Shown here: positions 41,284 to 49,550 of the stretch, in pieces
Numbering within the stretch: position 1 is the stretch's first letter
How the letters are laid out: every line of letters begins with the position of its first letter
Source: Phycisphaerae bacterium
GTDB taxonomy: Bacteria; Planctomycetota; Phycisphaerae; UBA1845; UTPLA1
Direction of reading: 5' to 3'
DNA length: 64,000 nucleotides
Assembly: GCA_023150615.1 (NCBI GenBank)
Contig: JAKLKO010000001.1
Span: 357,356-421,355, forward strand
Notes under the pieces: generated by a model
What the model saw: only the letters and a program-made list of their open reading frames with translations
Database searches by the model: none
What the model was told of the DNA's origin: nothing
Program-made: the position numbers and the translations under genes

Positions 41284-42453
41284 ATGCACGATCGGCACGA
41301 CACGTCCGCGCTGAACCCCATCGATACCCATTCGACTTCCGGCATCCTGCCGGTCAACCGCGATCCGAAGATCAATCGCCTCTTTCGCGCCTGCTGCAAG
41401 CTTGGCGCCAGCGACGTGCACGTCAAGGCGGGCTCGCCCCCGCGCTTCCGCCTCAAGGGCGACATCCGCAAGGCCAACGAGCCGGCCCTCAGCGGCGAGC
41501 AGATCGACGAGATGGTCTTCGAGATCCTGACGCCGGCGCAGCGCGAGCACTTCCTCGAGAACGGCGCGGTCGACTTCGCGCACGACATCGAAGGCCACGA
41601 CCGGTTCCGAATCAACGTCTATCGTCAGCGCGGCCACACGTCGATCGCCGCGCGACGCGTTGTCCGCGAAATCCGCGATTTCGACGAACTCGGGCTGCCG
41701 CCGGTGCTCAAGGAGGTCGCCAAGTTCCACCAGGGGCTCGTGCTCCTCGCGGGCATCACCGGCTCGGGCAAGAGCACGACCATCGCGGCCATGCTCAACC
41801 ACATTAACGCCACGCGGGCCTGCCACATCGTCACCATCGAGGACCCGATCGAGTACCTCTTCGAGGACAAAAAGGCGTTCATAAACCAGCGCGAGATCGG
41901 CATTGACGTCCGCGACTTCCACGCGGCGCTGAAATACCTCATGCGCCAGGACCCCGATGTCGTCCTCCTCGGCGAGCTGCGCGACCGCGAGACGTTTGAA
42001 GCTGCCATTCACGCCTCGGAGACCGGGCACCTCTGCTTCGGGACGATTCACGCGTCGACCACCGCGCAGACGATCACGCGCATCCTGGACCTCTTCCCCG
42101 AGAACTCGCGGTCGCTCGTGCGGCAGTCGCTGGTCTTCAACCTCAAGTCGGTCGTCTGCCAGAAGCTGCTGCCGTGTATCAAGCCCGACTTCGCGCGCAT
42201 CCCGTGCTGCGAGATCATGATCGTCAACGCCGCCATCCGAAAGCTGATCGCCGAGTCGCGCGACGTCGAAATCACAAACGTCCTCAAGAGTTCGTTGCAG
42301 GAAGGCATGCAGGACTTCACTGAAGCCCTGTACAAGCTGGTGACGGAAGAGTACGTTGACTTGAAAGTCGCTCTGGAAGTCGCCACGAACCCCGAAGAGC
42401 TCAAGATGCGACTCAAGGGGATCAAGGCCGGCGCCGGCGGGCTCCGCGGATAG
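41284..42453 (+). CDS. pilT: PilT-type retraction ATPase
   Basis: The 389-residue ATPase begins with an N-terminal domain containing KLGASDVHVKAGSPPRFRLKG. The ATPase core has Walker A GITGSGKSTT (Lys163), an Asp box VTIEDPIEYLF, Walker B VVLLGELRDRET and a His box GTIHAS (His256). PilT powers retraction of type IV pili, used for twitching and DNA uptake. The AIRNLIRE motif typical of the C-terminal region appears as AIRKLIAESRDVEITNVL, in part altered. It is the first gene of a run of six plus-strand/related genes, without pilin genes. The start ATG is 98 nt after the likely transcription start. Confidence 0.93.
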   Translation: MHDRHDTSALNPIDTHSTSGILPVNRDPKINRLFRACCKLGASDVHVKAGSPPRFRLKGDIRKANEPALSGEQIDEMVFEILTPAQREHFLENGAVDFAHDIEGHDRFRINVYRQRGHTSIAARRVVREIRDFDELGLPPVLKEVAKFHQGLVLLAGITGSGKSTTIAAMLNHINATRACHIVTIEDPIEYLFEDKKAFINQREIGIDVRDFHAALKYLMRQDPDVVLLGELRDRETFEAAIHASETGHLCFGTIHASTTAQTITRILDLFPENSRSLVRQSLVFNLKSVVCQKLLPCIKPDFARIPCCEIMIVNAAIRKLIAESRDVEITNVLKSSLQEGMQDFTEALYKLVTEEYVDLKVALEVATNPEELKMRLKGIKAGAGGLRG

Positions 42454-42500: not shown

Positions 42501-44252
42501 ATGGCATCGCTCGAGATCGTCGCGAACGGACGGCGTCGGACCGTTCCCCTCGATAAGTCCACGTTCACGATCGGGCGCCAGCCCGACAACGACATCGTCA
42601 TCGAGGACACCAAGGCGTCGCGACGCCACTGCACGATCGAGGCCGGGCCGGACGGCCTCAAGCTCCGCGACCTCAACTCCCGAAACGGCACCTGGATCGG
42701 TCCGAACCGCATCATCGAGGCCGACCTGTCCGACGGCTCCGTCTTTCGCATCGGCGAGACGCAGTTCATCATCTCGACCGGCTCAAGCGCGCCAGGTAAG
42801 GCCGCTCCGCAACGGATGCGCATCGCTCCCGCCGCGGCCCCCGTGCCATCGCTCAACGACAGCGGCGAACTGGTCATTCCAGCCCCCGCCGAAACGGCCG
42901 AGTCGCGCGAACCCGACGCCGAGATCATGCCCGCAATGTCCGGCGGAGGACCGCTCGCGCGGCAGCTCGCGCCCATCCTCGACGCCTGCCGCTACCTCGG
43001 CCCGAAAAAGAACATGCCGACCTCCCCGCGGGAGGTACGGCTCCTCGATCGGACCGGAAAACCGCTGGTGATGAAGGGCGCCGCTGGCCGACCGGCCGAG
43101 GCCATCGCGGCCCTGCAGCAACTCCTGTTCGCCTCGCTGCGGATTCGCGCCACGGACATCCACATCGAGCCGAAGGACCAGGTCTTCACGCTCCGCCTGC
43201 GGATTGACGGACTCATGCAGGCGATTGGCGACATGCACCGGCAGATGGGCCTGGCGATGCTCAACGTCATCAAGATCCTCTGCCACATCGATATCGCCAA
43301 ACGAAGCGTCGTTCAGGAAGGCAGCTTCTCCGCCGAACTCGCCGACCGGCGCGTCGACTTCCGCATCTCCTTCACCCCGGCCTCCGGCGGCCAGAAGCTC
43401 GCGCTGCGCATCCTCGACAAGTCGTCCGTTCCGGCGACGTTCGAGGAACTCGGCATGGATGCGCAGGCCTGCGGCGAGGTCCGACGCGTCTGCGGGCTCG
43501 ATTCGGGCATGATCATCGTCTCCGGCCCGACGGGCGCCGGAAAGACCACCACGCTTTACACCGCGCTCTCGACCATCGACGCCCGACGACGAAACGTCAT
43601 CACCGTCGAGGACCCGATCGAATACCACCTCGAACACACGACGCAAATCGCCATCGACCCGACCCACAACGTCACCTTCGCCTCCGTCCTCAGCACCATC
43701 CTCCGCCAGGACCCCGACGTCCTGTTCGTCGGCGAAATCCGCGACAAAGAAACGGCCACGCTCGCCATGCAGGCCGCCGCCACCGGCCACCTCGTGCTCA
43801 CGTCCATTCACGCCCGTGACACGATTGGCACAATCTTCCGACTGCTCGACCTCGGCGTGGAACCCTACGTCATCGCGAACGCCGTCTCGCTCATCATCGC
43901 GCAGCGGCTCGTGCGCGTCCTCTGCCCGCACTGCAAGCGCCCCTATCGACCCGACGCGAAGCAGATTCGCGACCTGCGACTCGAGGACCGCCCCACCACC
44001 GGCTCACTCTACGACCACGTCGGCTGCACGCGCTGCATGCACACCGGCTACTTCGGACGCATGGCGCTCTTCGAGGTCCTCCGCTTCACCTCGGCCCTGC
44101 GCGACGTCGTCCTCACTCGCCCCACCATCTCCGAAATCCGGAAAGTCGCCGGGGATTGGATGTTCCAAACCCTCATGGACAGCGGCTATCGGCAGGTCCT
44201 CGCCGGCTTGACGACCGTGGAAGAAGTCGAGCGCGTCTGCTCGTCCGATTGA
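42501..44252 (+). CDS. FHA domain fused to GspE/PilB assembly ATPase
   Basis: The 583-residue protein has an N-terminal FHA domain (1-93) with FTIGRQPDNDIVIEDTKASR and RDLNSRNGTWIG, residues that bind phosphothreonine. A 90-residue Pro/Ala linker follows. The ATPase part (about 190-583) has ATDIHIEPKDQVFTLRLRIDG, Walker A GPTGAGKTTT (Lys348), EDPIEYHLEHTTQIAID, Walker B VLFVGEIRDKET, a His box TSIHARDT, and a zinc-binding CPHCKR…CTRCMHTGYFGR. The core looks active. It would extend a pilus or drive secretion, with phosphorylation-dependent control through FHA. It starts 47 nt after pilT. Confidence 0.92.
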   Translation: MASLEIVANGRRRTVPLDKSTFTIGRQPDNDIVIEDTKASRRHCTIEAGPDGLKLRDLNSRNGTWIGPNRIIEADLSDGSVFRIGETQFIISTGSSAPGKAAPQRMRIAPAAAPVPSLNDSGELVIPAPAETAESREPDAEIMPAMSGGGPLARQLAPILDACRYLGPKKNMPTSPREVRLLDRTGKPLVMKGAAGRPAEAIAALQQLLFASLRIRATDIHIEPKDQVFTLRLRIDGLMQAIGDMHRQMGLAMLNVIKILCHIDIAKRSVVQEGSFSAELADRRVDFRISFTPASGGQKLALRILDKSSVPATFEELGMDAQACGEVRRVCGLDSGMIIVSGPTGAGKTTTLYTALSTIDARRRNVITVEDPIEYHLEHTTQIAIDPTHNVTFASVLSTILRQDPDVLFVGEIRDKETATLAMQAAATGHLVLTSIHARDTIGTIFRLLDLGVEPYVIANAVSLIIAQRLVRVLCPHCKRPYRPDAKQIRDLRLEDRPTTGSLYDHVGCTRCMHTGYFGRMALFEVLRFTSALRDVVLTRPTISEIRKVAGDWMFQTLMDSGYRQVLAGLTTVEEVERVCSSD

Positions 44253-44352: not shown

Positions 44353-46053
44353 ATGAATTCGTTCGATCTACGCCTCCCGCTCGCCGTCCTCCCGACCGCA
44401 GGGAACTACTTCGACCCCATCAAGATCGGCCTCTTCGTCGTCCTCGCGCTCGCCTGGGCCTACGTTTGCGCCTGGGTCGACAAGGACACGCTCAAGGCCA
44501 AAACGCCGCGCCTCCCCTGGAACGCCGCGGTCTTCGGCGCCGGCGGGCTCGGCATCGCCCTCTGGCTCCTGCTCCCGAGCTGGATCCTCGGCCTGCTGCT
44601 CTACCTCCTGCTCTTCGGCGGCGCCACCGGCGCGTACGTCGTTCACCGCAACGGCCGGGTCGCGCCCGCGCAGCGCGTCCTCACGCCGGCACACCTCAAG
44701 CGGCTGCTCAACAAGAAGCCCGCCACCGAGGAGGCCATCCACGCCGGCGACAAGGTCCGCATCAAGGGCGCCGACGGCAAACAACCGAAGTGGCCGACCG
44801 ATTCCGAGGAACATAAGGCCTACGCCGCGCTGCAAAACCTCCTCTTCGACGCAATCTGGCGCCGCGCGAGCGTGGTCGACATCACCCTCCAGGCCCAGAC
44901 CGCGCGGATTATCTATCGCGTCGACGGCGTCAACCGCGACCGCGAACCGATCGAACGACCGCTCGCGGACGCCGCCCTGACGCACCTCAAACGGATCAGC
45001 GGCATGGACCCCGAGGAGATGCGGAAACCGCAGAACGGCAAGCTCACCGCCGCGGTCGGTCCGGGCGGCAAGCAGGACAAGGTCGTCGAGATCTCCGTGA
45101 AGACGTCCGGCTCGACGGCCGGCCAGCGCTTCGTCATGCGGCTGTTCGCCGAAGACACCAAGTTCCGTGTGCAGGACATCGGCCTGACGAAGCCGCAGTT
45201 GGACCTGCTGCAACCCGTCATCGACAAGCTCTCCGGCGTCATGCTCATCGCCGGACCGCGCGAGAGCGGCCTCACGACCACGCTCTACGCGCTGATCCGC
45301 GGTCACGACGCATTCCTGCGTAACATCCACACGCTCGAATCGCCGAAGGTCATGGACATCGACAACGTCACGCAACATTCCTTCGATCCGAAGGGCGGCG
45401 ACGTCGCCTTCGCGCGACAGCTCCAGTCGATCCTCCGCATGGACCCCGACATCATCATGGTCTCCGACTGCCCCGACCGCGACACCGCCGAGATGATTGC
45501 CGCCGCCGGACGCCAGAAGAAAAAGGTCTACGCCGGCATCTCGACCAGTGACACGATGGCCGCGCTGCGGCGCTATCTACAACTCGTCGGCGACCATGAC
45601 CTCGCGGCATCCGGGCTGGAGGCGGTGGTCGCCCAGCGCCTCGTCCGCGTGCTCTGTCCCACCTGCCGCCGGGCCTACAAGCCCGACCCGAACATCCTGC
45701 GGAAGGCCAACCTGCCGACGGGTGAGAACCGGCCGTTCTACCGCCCGCCGAATCCGGACGAGATCGAGACCGACAAGCGCGGCAACCCGGTAATCTGCCA
45801 GGTCTGCCAGGGATCGGGTTACCTTGGTCGAACGGGGATCTTCGAGGTCCTGGTGATCGACGATGAGATTCGCGGTATGCTGGCGCGCGGTACGCCGCTG
45901 CAGAACGTCAAGGCACACGCCCGCAAGAACCGCATGCAGTACCTCCAGGAGGTCGGGCTCTACAAGGTGTACGAGGGAATCACGAGCATCAACGAGATCC
46001 TGCGGGTCACGCGCGACGAAACATCGGCGCGGCCCTCGACCGCGACCTCGTAG
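44353..46053 (+). CDS. Membrane-anchored GspE/PilB paralogue with degenerate ATP site
   Basis: The 566-residue protein starts MNSFDLRLPL and has three N-terminal membrane segments (about 25-110), not usual in this family. The GspE-like core (about 150-566) has Walker A as GPRESGLTTT with Leu307 in place of Lys, an Asp box as TLESPKVMD in place of VEDPIE, Walker B as IIMVSDCPDRDT with SD for GE, and a His box as GISTSDT lacking His. The zinc fingers CPTCRR and CQVCQGSGYLGRTGIFEVL are intact. It is probably a non-hydrolysing partner of the active ATPases. ATG 44353 was chosen; an upstream in-frame ATG at 44278 adds 25 residues. Confidence 0.88.
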   Translation: MNSFDLRLPLAVLPTAGNYFDPIKIGLFVVLALAWAYVCAWVDKDTLKAKTPRLPWNAAVFGAGGLGIALWLLLPSWILGLLLYLLLFGGATGAYVVHRNGRVAPAQRVLTPAHLKRLLNKKPATEEAIHAGDKVRIKGADGKQPKWPTDSEEHKAYAALQNLLFDAIWRRASVVDITLQAQTARIIYRVDGVNRDREPIERPLADAALTHLKRISGMDPEEMRKPQNGKLTAAVGPGGKQDKVVEISVKTSGSTAGQRFVMRLFAEDTKFRVQDIGLTKPQLDLLQPVIDKLSGVMLIAGPRESGLTTTLYALIRGHDAFLRNIHTLESPKVMDIDNVTQHSFDPKGGDVAFARQLQSILRMDPDIIMVSDCPDRDTAEMIAAAGRQKKKVYAGISTSDTMAALRRYLQLVGDHDLAASGLEAVVAQRLVRVLCPTCRRAYKPDPNILRKANLPTGENRPFYRPPNPDEIETDKRGNPVICQVCQGSGYLGRTGIFEVLVIDDEIRGMLARGTPLQNVKAHARKNRMQYLQEVGLYKVYEGITSINEILRVTRDETSARPSTATS

Positions 46054-46119: not shown

Positions 46120-48105
46120 ATGATCCTCTCGCTCCTGTCCGCCGTCTTCGTCCTCCTCATCGCCGCGTTCTGGGCGTTCCAGGGCCTGTTCTCGAGTGCC
46201 ATCATGTTCGTCGAGACGCTCACGGCCATGATGGTCGCCTTCGGCTTCTACGAGCCCCTGCACGAAATGTGGGCCGCGCAGGTGCCGGGCGACTACGGCT
46301 ACTCCGGTGCGCTCGTCCTGCTGTTTCTGATCACGCTGGCCGTGCTCCGTTTCCTCACCGACAAATTCATCCCCGGGAACGTGCATTTCCCGCTCGCCGT
46401 CGACCGCGCCGGAGGCGGACTGCTCGGCCTGCTCACCGGACTGACGATCGTCGGCACGGTGCTCGTCGCGATTCAGATGATGCCGCTCGGTACGGACCTT
46501 CTCGGATTCACGCGCATCGCGCCGAACGACCCGCGCCAGCGCGCATCGATCTGGCTCAACCCCGACGGCTTCGCGAGCGGCCTCGCCGTGTTCCTCTCGG
46601 ACGGCCGCTTTCAGGGCCAGAACCGCTTCGGCGAGTCGCACCCGGACCTCCTGACCGAGTTGTTCGCGAAAAACTGCGGGTTCCAGCGCGAGGCCAAGCG
46701 CGAAGCGCCGAAGGATGCCATCAGCGTCCTGGGCTACTGGAGCGTCGCGTCGATCGACGAAGTGCGACAGGAGCCGGCCAGCCAGGGCTGGACGCGGAAC
46801 TTCAGCCCGGCCGGCCCGTCCGATCCGAGTCACCAGTTCCTCGTCGTGCGTCTCGGTCTCAGCGCCTCCGCCGCAGAGTCCGCCGATGGCAGCTCGAACA
46901 TGATCCTCTTCACGCCCGCGCAGTTCCGCGTCGTCGGATCGCCGGCCGGCGATTCCCACGGCGCGCCGATGCTGCATCTGGCCGTCGGCATGAGCGACCT
47001 GTTCGCCGAGAAGGCGGATTTCAACATCACCGCGAAACAGGCCTCGCGCCTGGTGAAGTGGCCGCTCAACATGCGATTCGGACTCAGCGATCAGATTGCC
47101 AAGGAACTGAAGGAAAACAACCGGTTCGTCGTCGACGTCGTCTTCGAGGTCCCCCAGGGCTTCCAGCCGCGTTACATCGAGTTCAAGTCGGGCGCGATGG
47201 TCGAGCTGACCGAGAAGCTGAGCCGAAAGCAGCCGATGCCGCGCCAATCGGTCGCGCCGCCTCCGCCGCCGAAGAAGCCCGACGCCGCCGACGACGCGGA
47301 GGACGAGGACGAAGAGGACGCCGATGAGACTCCCGCCGCCGAGAAACCGGCCGGCGGCGCGGCAGGCTCCGCCGCGAAATCGCCCGCCGCCGCGTCGGAG
47401 GACGAGGACGAGGACGAGGAGGACGAAGACGAGGGCGAGGGCGAGGGCGAGGACGATGAATCGCCGGGTCAGGCATCGGCCGACGCCTCCGCGAAGAAGC
47501 CCCCTGCCGCGCCAAAGGTCGGCTCCGGCCCCAAGGGCCGCCTGCACGTAGCCTCCGCCGTCGAGGAGCGCACGGGCGTATCGCCGCTCCTGCCGCGTCC
47601 GCTGCGACGATCCGACCTGAAGCCCGATGTGCTCCAGGGAAACAAGTTCCACGAAGGTCACGTGGTCATCGACAATCCACCGGACGAGGTGCTCGAAAGC
47701 GAGGCCATCACCGAATTCGATGTCCCCTCCGACCGCCGCCTCGTTCAGGTCGGTGCGGAGCGCGTCTTCGCCGGCAGCGCCCTCGGACAGGTCCTCGAAT
47801 TCGCGAAGCGCGCCGTCTCTCAGATCTCCGTCGAAACCGACGAAGGCGAACGCCACTTCGCCGTCGGCGTCTACATCGAGGCCACGGTCGCGGGCAAGCG
47901 CGTGCTCGAGATTCAGTACTACTACGAGCCCGAAGTGCCGGAGCGCTGCCTCAAGCCGCCGAACCGCCTGACGCACAACGTCCTTCGAACGTCGAAGGAC
48001 CCGAAGATGGGGTTTCTCTTCGCCGTCCCGCCGGGTGAGACCATCGTGAGGCTTTACACCTCGCCGCGGAGCGGACAGAACGTCCGGATCGAAGTCCCCG
48101 AGTAA
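46120..48105 (+). CDS. CvpA-family membrane protein with acidic linker and large C-terminal domain
   Basis: The 661-residue protein begins with a CvpA-like domain of four membrane segments (about 1-130) ending in FPLAVDRAGGGLLGLLTGL. A soluble domain (about 145-380) follows, then an acidic low-complexity linker (388-447) made almost only of Asp, Glu, Ala and Gly, and a C-terminal beta-rich domain (about 460-661). CvpA (colicin V production) proteins help maintain the envelope and are usually about 160 residues; the extension here is three times longer. AGGAAA lies upstream of the ATG. It follows the pseudo-ATPase by 66 nt and precedes the HtrA gene by 5 nt. Confidence 0.78.
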   Translation: MILSLLSAVFVLLIAAFWAFQGLFSSAIMFVETLTAMMVAFGFYEPLHEMWAAQVPGDYGYSGALVLLFLITLAVLRFLTDKFIPGNVHFPLAVDRAGGGLLGLLTGLTIVGTVLVAIQMMPLGTDLLGFTRIAPNDPRQRASIWLNPDGFASGLAVFLSDGRFQGQNRFGESHPDLLTELFAKNCGFQREAKREAPKDAISVLGYWSVASIDEVRQEPASQGWTRNFSPAGPSDPSHQFLVVRLGLSASAAESADGSSNMILFTPAQFRVVGSPAGDSHGAPMLHLAVGMSDLFAEKADFNITAKQASRLVKWPLNMRFGLSDQIAKELKENNRFVVDVVFEVPQGFQPRYIEFKSGAMVELTEKLSRKQPMPRQSVAPPPPPKKPDAADDAEDEDEEDADETPAAEKPAGGAAGSAAKSPAAASEDEDEDEEDEDEGEGEGEDDESPGQASADASAKKPPAAPKVGSGPKGRLHVASAVEERTGVSPLLPRPLRRSDLKPDVLQGNKFHEGHVVIDNPPDEVLESEAITEFDVPSDRRLVQVGAERVFAGSALGQVLEFAKRAVSQISVETDEGERHFAVGVYIEATVAGKRVLEIQYYYEPEVPERCLKPPNRLTHNVLRTSKDPKMGFLFAVPPGETIVRLYTSPRSGQNVRIEVPE

Positions 48106-48110
48106 CCGGC

Positions 48111-49550
48111 ATGGATCGCCGACGCGCAGCCTCGCGCCACATCGACATCGCGATTACAGCCTTGCTGATCGCCGCGACCGCGGCGCGATCCGCCGAGCCG
48201 CCCGCCGCGCACCGCCGGACCGCTCTGCCGGCCGATGCGTCCAAGATCCCGCGCGTCCTCTCCGACACCGCCCTCGTCGATGTCGTCGATCGCGTCGCCC
48301 CATCCATCGTCGCCGTACAGGTAACGCGCCGAACCGCATCCGAGATTCGCTCGCCCGACGCAGACCACTCGCTCGCTCCCGCTCCTGCGGCCGAGGACCT
48401 CCACGGCGCCGGCGTCATCCTCGACTCGGCTGGACTCGTCGCCACCGCTGCGCACGTCGTCCGCGGCGCAGACGTCATTCACGTCGTCACGTCCGATGGA
48501 CAGCGCTGCCGCGCGGCCACCGTCGGCGCGGACCCGTACAGTGACCTCGCCGTCGTCCGGATCTCCGCCGGCCGGCTGAGATCGGCGACCCTCGGCGACG
48601 CAGGCAACCTGCGGCGCGGTCAGGCCGTCGTCGCCTTCGGCAATCCGTGGGGAATCGCCAGCGATGGCCAGGCCTCCGTCGCCCTCGGAATCGTCAGCGG
48701 GCTTGACCGCGCCGCGCCCATGAGCGACGCCGGACTCGATGCGGCCATCGGCGGTTTGATACAGACCTCGGCCGCCATTAACCCCGGCGACTCGGGCGGG
48801 GCGCTTGTCGATCTACGCGGTCGCATCGTCGGCCTGATCACCCGCATTCAGACCACGAGCGGCGCGGGCCAGGGCGTCGGCTTCGCGATCCCGATCAACC
48901 CGCGGACGCGCGAAATCCTCGCAGCCCTGTCACGCGGCGAGCTGGTCGCGTACGCCGACCTCGGCGCCGGCTTCAACGGCCGCGGGCCGCTCGCGTCGCT
49001 CGACGCACCCGCTGCCGGAGCGTGCATCACGGAGGTCGCGCCGCAGGGCCCCGCCGCCTCTGCCGGCTTGCAGGCGGGTGACTGCATCGAGCGCATAAAC
49101 GGACGGCCGGTAAATGGCCCGGCGCATCTGTTCCGCTTGATCGGCGCATGTTCGCCGGGCACGGCCGTGCAAATCGCATTCCGCCGCGGCGACGAAGTCC
49201 GTGAGGCAACCGCCGTTCTGGCGCGGGCCGACCGTCCGTCGGCGTCAAGAGTCCAGGAAAGTTCTGAGCGTCGCGAGTGGCGCGGCGCGACCATGATCGC
49301 GGCCGCGTCCGCCCGGCACCCGAACGGAACCCGATCGCTCGCGTTTCCGCCCGGTACGCAGCTCGTCGTCGCCGTCGAACACGAATCGCCCGCCGAGCGC
49401 GCCGGTCTCGAGCCCGGCGACCTGATCGTGCGCATCAGCGGCTCGCCGCTCACATCGATTGAAACGACCGAACGGCTGCTCGCTACCGCGAGCGGCGAGG
49501 TGCTGCTCGGCCTTCAGAACGGCAGCGCGATCCTGGTCGCCGCGCCGTGA
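48111..49550 (+). CDS. HtrA/DegP-like serine protease with two PDZ domains
   Basis: The 479-residue exported protease has a signal peptide (1-28). The catalytic triad is in place: His115 (ATAAHVV), Asp145 (YSDLAVV), Ser228 (NPGDSGGAL). The trypsin-like domain spans about 50-280. Two PDZ domains follow, one around 300-380 (SAGLQAGDCIERINGRPV) and one around 400-479 (RAGLEPGDLIVRISGSPL). HtrA proteases refold or degrade damaged proteins in the periplasm. Its start is 5 nt after the CvpA-like gene, so they are co-transcribed. Substrates of the nearby export ATPases are a possible target, which is inference. Confidence 0.93.
   Translation: MDRRRAASRHIDIAITALLIAATAARSAEPPAAHRRTALPADASKIPRVLSDTALVDVVDRVAPSIVAVQVTRRTASEIRSPDADHSLAPAPAAEDLHGAGVILDSAGLVATAAHVVRGADVIHVVTSDGQRCRAATVGADPYSDLAVVRISAGRLRSATLGDAGNLRRGQAVVAFGNPWGIASDGQASVALGIVSGLDRAAPMSDAGLDAAIGGLIQTSAAINPGDSGGALVDLRGRIVGLITRIQTTSGAGQGVGFAIPINPRTREILAALSRGELVAYADLGAGFNGRGPLASLDAPAAGACITEVAPQGPAASAGLQAGDCIERINGRPVNGPAHLFRLIGACSPGTAVQIAFRRGDEVREATAVLARADRPSASRVQESSERREWRGATMIAAASARHPNGTRSLAFPPGTQLVVAVEHESPAERAGLEPGDLIVRISGSPLTSIETTERLLATASGEVLLGLQNGSAILVAAP

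Follow-up and report, generated by a model that had tools for sequence, protein, structure and literature searches.

A conserved, putatively membrane-anchored pseudo-ATPase of the PilB/GspE clade

What use could a cell have for a pilus assembly ATPase that has lost most of the residues of its own chemistry? The question is raised by a gene in the 64,000-nucleotide stretch of Phycisphaerae DNA analysed here (the window), which encodes a protein of 566 residues (P0001; 44353-46053, + strand, from the ATG at 44353 up to and including the stop codon), referred to below as pseudo-PilB. It is the third of five + strand genes separated by gaps of about 5-100 bases, preceded by a PilT-type ATPase (41284-42453), which scores above the cut-off of NCBIfam pilT_fam, and by an FHA-domain PilB (42501-44252; Pfam FHA and T2SSE), both with intact catalytic motifs, and followed by a CvpA-domain membrane protein (46120-48105; Pfam Colicin_V) and an HtrA-like protease (48111-49550; Pfam Trypsin_2 and PDZ, with NCBIfam degP_htrA_DO below its cut-off). 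No pilin, PilM/N/O or platform gene was found next to it. Residues 159-551 match Pfam T2SSE (E 9.9e-62, profile positions 11-370), the homology to PilB and GspE spans the N2D, the CTD and the C-terminal region, identity to active PilBs is about 31-37% across the core, and the closest solved structures in the PDB are GspE and PilB, with no FlaH entry among the Pfam or PDB matches. As it scores against GspE and PilB models, homology-based annotation could label the protein an assembly ATPase.

The catalytic residues tell a different story. Eight positions were scored, namely the Walker A lysine, the Asp-box glutamate, the Walker B glycine, the catalytic glutamate, two His-box histidines and two arginine fingers; these are the residues named for PilT-like ATPases (PMC5424180), mapped via alignment and residue spacing, and the Walker, catalytic glutamate, arginine-finger and Asp-box residues are described there as completely conserved. 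Pseudo-PilB retains two of the eight, E329 and R263, so that an earlier note on this DNA, made from its letters alone, put the matter slightly too strongly in stating that all four catalytic signatures were lost. Three of its readings hold as they stood: the Walker A motif GPRESGLTTT (45253-45282, +) carries Leu307 (CTC, 45271-45273) instead of lysine, three base changes away from AAA or AAG; the alignment places S371-D372 (45463-45468, +) at the Walker B glycine and catalytic glutamate; and both histidines of the His box (45520-45543, +) are gone, replaced by K390 and S397. The Asp box, likewise reported as altered, has lost its following aspartate but keeps Glu329 (45337-45339, +), the equivalent of the Mg-binding glutamate of PilB. 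The first arginine finger is lost (S248), and the second is kept (R263). Also kept is Arg432 (45646-45648, +), which by residue spacing corresponds to Arg455 of Geobacter metallireducens PilB, a residue with an inter-chain role (PMC5424180). All four cysteines of the zinc site (C435, C438, C482 and C485; 45655-45807, +) are present as well; what had been described as intact zinc fingers is, however, one tetra-cysteine zinc site.

Is this the state of a single gene or of a lineage? Full-length orthologues of pseudo-PilB were found in 56 of the 61 genomes searched, the window's own counted, and the degenerate clade as sampled holds 92 members, 87 of Phycisphaerae type and 5 of Thermoguttaceae type. 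The named relatives were taken from the matches listed in a scan of the collection, and other phyla may also carry the family; a search of the phylum (244 genomes) gives best matches only, which divergent orthologues may escape. Retention of the eight residues is bimodal, with one to four present in every member of the clade, as against all eight in 25/25 canonical PilBs and in 30 of 31 intact orthologues. Chance does not account for the missing Walker A lysine, which 92/92 clade members lack as against 0/25 canonical PilBs, and the residue found at its position varies between V, L, I, R, M, A, Q, G, T and F. Walker B glycine and catalytic glutamate occur jointly in 9/92, never alongside the lysine, while both histidines are lost throughout and arginine finger 1 nearly so. 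The second Walker A glycine and R432, by contrast, are kept in 92/92, the Asp-box glutamate in 90/92, and the zinc cysteines in 86-87 of the 87 Phycisphaerae-type and 5/5 Thermoguttaceae-type members, a combination which argues for the loss of ATPase chemistry rather than for a protein falling apart. Two residues, H318 (95%) and Y393 (97%), are fixed in the Phycisphaerae-type pseudo members and not in the intact orthologues; they hint at a new surface in the degenerate proteins, as would be expected of a new function. Nine related pairs gave dN/dS values of 0.02-0.23 (Nei-Gojobori), those of the more distant pairs being rough since they are near synonymous saturation, and pseudo-PilB is, by this measure, kept under purifying selection. 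Thus, our analysis supports, with high confidence, the pseudo-ATPase that the earlier note had envisaged, as a conserved member of the PilB/GspE clade anchored in the membrane, and the sequences speak strongly for a loss of ATPase activity.

Two ways of denying that conclusion have to be weighed. Judged by its lost catalytic motifs only, a decaying pseudogene or a sequencing artefact could not be told apart from such a protein, but the frames are open across the clade, the dN/dS values are low, the zinc site and the membrane segment are fixed, and the changes are common to many independently assembled genomes among the matches listed; the chance of either is negligible, and an error at codon 307 and the other motif positions, against which the earlier note had cautioned, is excluded by a clade that is without the lysine in its entirety. 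Alternatively, the protein could still hydrolyse ATP, or at least bind nucleotide, by way of altered residues, for which the strong conservation of E329, G306 and T308 might speak. With lysine and both histidines gone throughout, arginine finger 1 nearly so, and no single substitute established at the lysine position, we regard this as very improbable, although the protein may perhaps bind nucleotide without hydrolysing it.

How is the protein built, and when was its chemistry lost? A single-chain AF2 model, built with 51 sequences (mean pLDDT 88.8), puts helices first and a PilB-like core after them, and Foldseek aligns it to G. metallireducens PilB (5tsh_E) with a target-normalised TM-score of 0.90; structure prediction of the protein alone, one of the checks named in the earlier note, thus indicates that the PilB fold is retained. 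Three transmembrane helices are predicted at residues 22-49, 53-73 and 77-100 (44416-44652, +; pLDDT mostly 86-97), and their charge pattern suggests an N-out topology with the ATPase-fold domain in the cytoplasm. They occupy the place of the N1D/MshEN (GSPII) domain, for which none of the 51 members has a Pfam match. Three hydrophobic segments recur in nearly all pseudo members and in all intact orthologues, and are not found in canonical PilBs. The membrane anchor seen in the earlier note is therefore predicted here too, but it was not gained together with the loss of catalysis: as the intact orthologues have the same three helices, the anchor is the older of the two events.

These intact orthologues, full-length proteins from Isosphaeraceae (e.g. 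Aquisphaera insulae, locus L085, and Singulisphaera, L089) and from family groups f37 and f44, carry a GPTGSGKTTTLY-type Walker A, VEDPIEY, GEIRD and His boxes, and align with pseudo-PilB through the membrane region as well. In L085 (9863-11620), L089 (6604-8238) and their relatives, three N-terminal membrane helices replace the N1D of an otherwise intact PilB, apparently making these proteins active, membrane-anchored extension ATPases. A further Isosphaeraceae orthologue (L099, 6417-8045) is else intact and has its zinc cysteines partly lost in the alignment. In rooted trees, computed with the motif columns omitted, the whole anchored family forms a clade apart from canonical PilBs, with the intact members basal, the degenerate members together and no lysine-bearing row inside the degenerate clade. 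Orthologues with a normal Walker A, named in the earlier note as evidence against its proposal, do exist, but being basal they date the loss and do not refute it. The 38-row tree unites all degenerate members (support 98/96), and the alternative grouping of Thermoguttaceae-type with intact Isosphaeraceae-type proteins is not clearly rejected (AU p = 0.07); one loss fits this tree best, and two are possible. The simplest reading of the trees would be an active, anchored ancestor, with catalysis lost later.

Which partners does the genomic context suggest? Where the flanking DNA is long enough to tell, PilT is encoded upstream of the family member in 67/87 loci, in 64 of them immediately, and a CvpA-domain protein downstream in 79/91. 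The catalytic motifs of PilT are intact in 46/46 aligned sequences, the window's included. Since duplicate removal left some loci without a Walker state, a split by state is partial: Isosphaeraceae-type loci that could be classed have PilT upstream in 8/8 and CvpA downstream in 7/8, while four f37 loci with intact orthologues, which are among those left without a state, have no PilT upstream. At the level of whole genomes, 47 of the 61 contain both PilT and pseudo-PilB, 9 pseudo-PilB only, 2 PilT only and 3 neither, a weak co-occurrence (Fisher p = 0.048, relatedness ignored), which makes synteny across distant relatives the stronger argument for a link to PilT. Within the window's own family (f1), the two genes lie apart in 10 of the 14 genomes that have both. 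In several genomes of this family (L187-L190 and L192-L194), a block of pseudo-PilB, CvpA and HtrA and a pair of PilT and FHA-PilB are found at separate places. The HtrA-like protease adjoins only in the window's close family. The CvpA-domain protein is modelled by AF2 with 4 membrane helices and beta-rich regions. Two such regions, together with a disordered linker rich in acidic residues, characterize it and its aligned relatives, and its fold has no PDB match at E below 0.001.

The partner favoured in the earlier note was FHA-PilB. It does stand directly upstream in the window, but is adjacent in only 5/87 loci, the conserved neighbour being the intact PilT, and the proposed co-occurrence with pseudo-PilB does not materialize as an association between genomes (Fisher p = 1.0). 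Every one of the 17 genomes of the window's family carries an FHA-PilB orthologue, though one of these is partial and another shows just 37% identity, and 8 further genomes have one too; among the relatives searched, all belong to families f1 and f5. In our trees, the FHA-PilB of the window (42501-44252) forms a long, basal branch among canonical PilBs.

Taken together, a protein that keeps the features of a ring, has lost those of a motor, is tied to the membrane and is usually encoded beside a working PilT invites interpretation as an adaptor or socket ring. In the scenario we propose, an anchored ATPase of PilB type, which seems to have stayed active in Isosphaeraceae-like relatives, would have ceased to hydrolyse ATP before the diversification of the Phycisphaerae, and the dead enzyme would then have been retained as a pseudoenzyme. 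Most likely it would still build a PilB-like ring, which the three N-terminal helices would fix to the inner membrane on its cytoplasmic side. Without catalysis of its own, this ring may provide the active PilT-type hexamer usually encoded alongside with a socket, an adaptor or a regulator. In the window's own family, the active FHA-PilB may share the role of PilT, and the CvpA-domain protein could be a membrane or envelope partner. Here the absence of ATPase activity, the formation of a ring and the docking of PilT are all inferred. Precedents make such an adaptor ring plausible: a Vibrio cholerae PilT with a dead Walker A (K136A) still supports retraction driven by PilU (PMC6821130), and FlaH binds to the FlaI motor and stimulates it without hydrolysing ATP (PMC6011876). 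Counting against docking is the loss of arginine finger 1, which would act on the neighbouring subunit. On balance, we give the reading in which an inactive, anchored PilB-like ring docks or regulates the PilT motor a probability of about 0.5. Its more specific form, a Phycisphaerae-type two-ring motor in which the dead ring is the permanent PilT socket, derived from the anchored active PilB that survives in Isosphaeraceae, is more tentative and on present evidence rather doubtful.

Other roles for the same protein have to be set against this. Pseudo-PilB and an active ATPase, either FHA-PilB or PilT, could share one mixed hexamer and so tether the active partner to the membrane. The retained PilB fold, the inter-chain R432 and a core as similar to active PilBs as stated above would allow this; however, 33 of the 56 genomes with pseudo-PilB are without FHA-PilB, a subunit lacking arginine finger 1 cannot fully complete its neighbour's site, and PilT is a distant relative, with V. 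cholerae PilT and PilU reported as homohexamers (PMC6821130), which leaves the mixed ring decidedly improbable. Less easily set aside, if still unlikely, is an envelope scaffold or sensor, in which the PilB fold would be reused together with the CvpA-domain protein for a non-motor function, with the linkage to PilT as a relic. CvpA is conserved as a neighbour no less stably than PilT, 9/61 genomes have pseudo-PilB without a P0003-type PilT, and new conserved residues have been acquired; against it, the intact orthologues share the order PilT-PilB-CvpA, pointing to a motor-related ancestry, and PilT has stayed catalytically intact throughout. The idea that pseudo-PilB stands in for the missing platform protein (PilC/GspF), also raised in the earlier note, draws on its membrane helices and on a local cluster without a T2SSF gene, but has little left to commend it: 14 hits to T2SSF (PilC/GspF) domains lie in other parts of the genome, neither sequence nor structure matches of the protein resemble T2SSF, and the same helices are already present in catalytically intact orthologues.

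How does pseudo-PilB, as a putative adaptor ring for PilT, compare with known systems? With the GspL and PilM-type anchors it would share a proposed role, that of tethering a motor ATPase to the membrane, and no sequence relation to them was detected. Two further cases would resemble it in function. FlaH/ArlH of the archaellum, a protein of ATPase fold, binds a PilT-family motor and stimulates it, yet does not hydrolyse ATP (PMC6011876). It differs in belonging to another family, of RecA/KaiC type, in binding ATP, and in that its Walker B is non-canonical, whereas pseudo-PilB is without the Walker A lysine. We know of no membrane anchoring of FlaH/ArlH. In the PilT(K136A)-PilU pair, a Walker A-dead ring lets an active ring act on the pilus (PMC6821130), but there the change was engineered into a retraction ATPase that is not membrane-anchored, and is not that of a natural, fixed pseudoenzyme. 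In the open-access literature searched, we found no published PilB-family pseudo-ATPase, no other pseudoenzyme of the superfamily and no membrane-anchored PilB, though such proteins may have been described. By descent, pseudo-PilB belongs with the PilB/GspE extension ATPases (T2SSE, PF00437), with which it shares the N2D, the CTD, the tetra-cysteine zinc motif and, in the model, the fold; it departs from them in its three membrane helices in place of a recognizable N1D/MshEN and in its catalytic residues, most of those lost being ones for which complete conservation among PilT-like ATPases had been reported (PMC5424180). The intact anchored orthologues, predicted to be active, have the same helices and core and, with one exception, the full catalytic set. 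Both forms of the anchored protein, the intact and the dead, are extant, and the family thus constitutes a natural experiment on the non-hydrolytic roles of a pilus motor ring.
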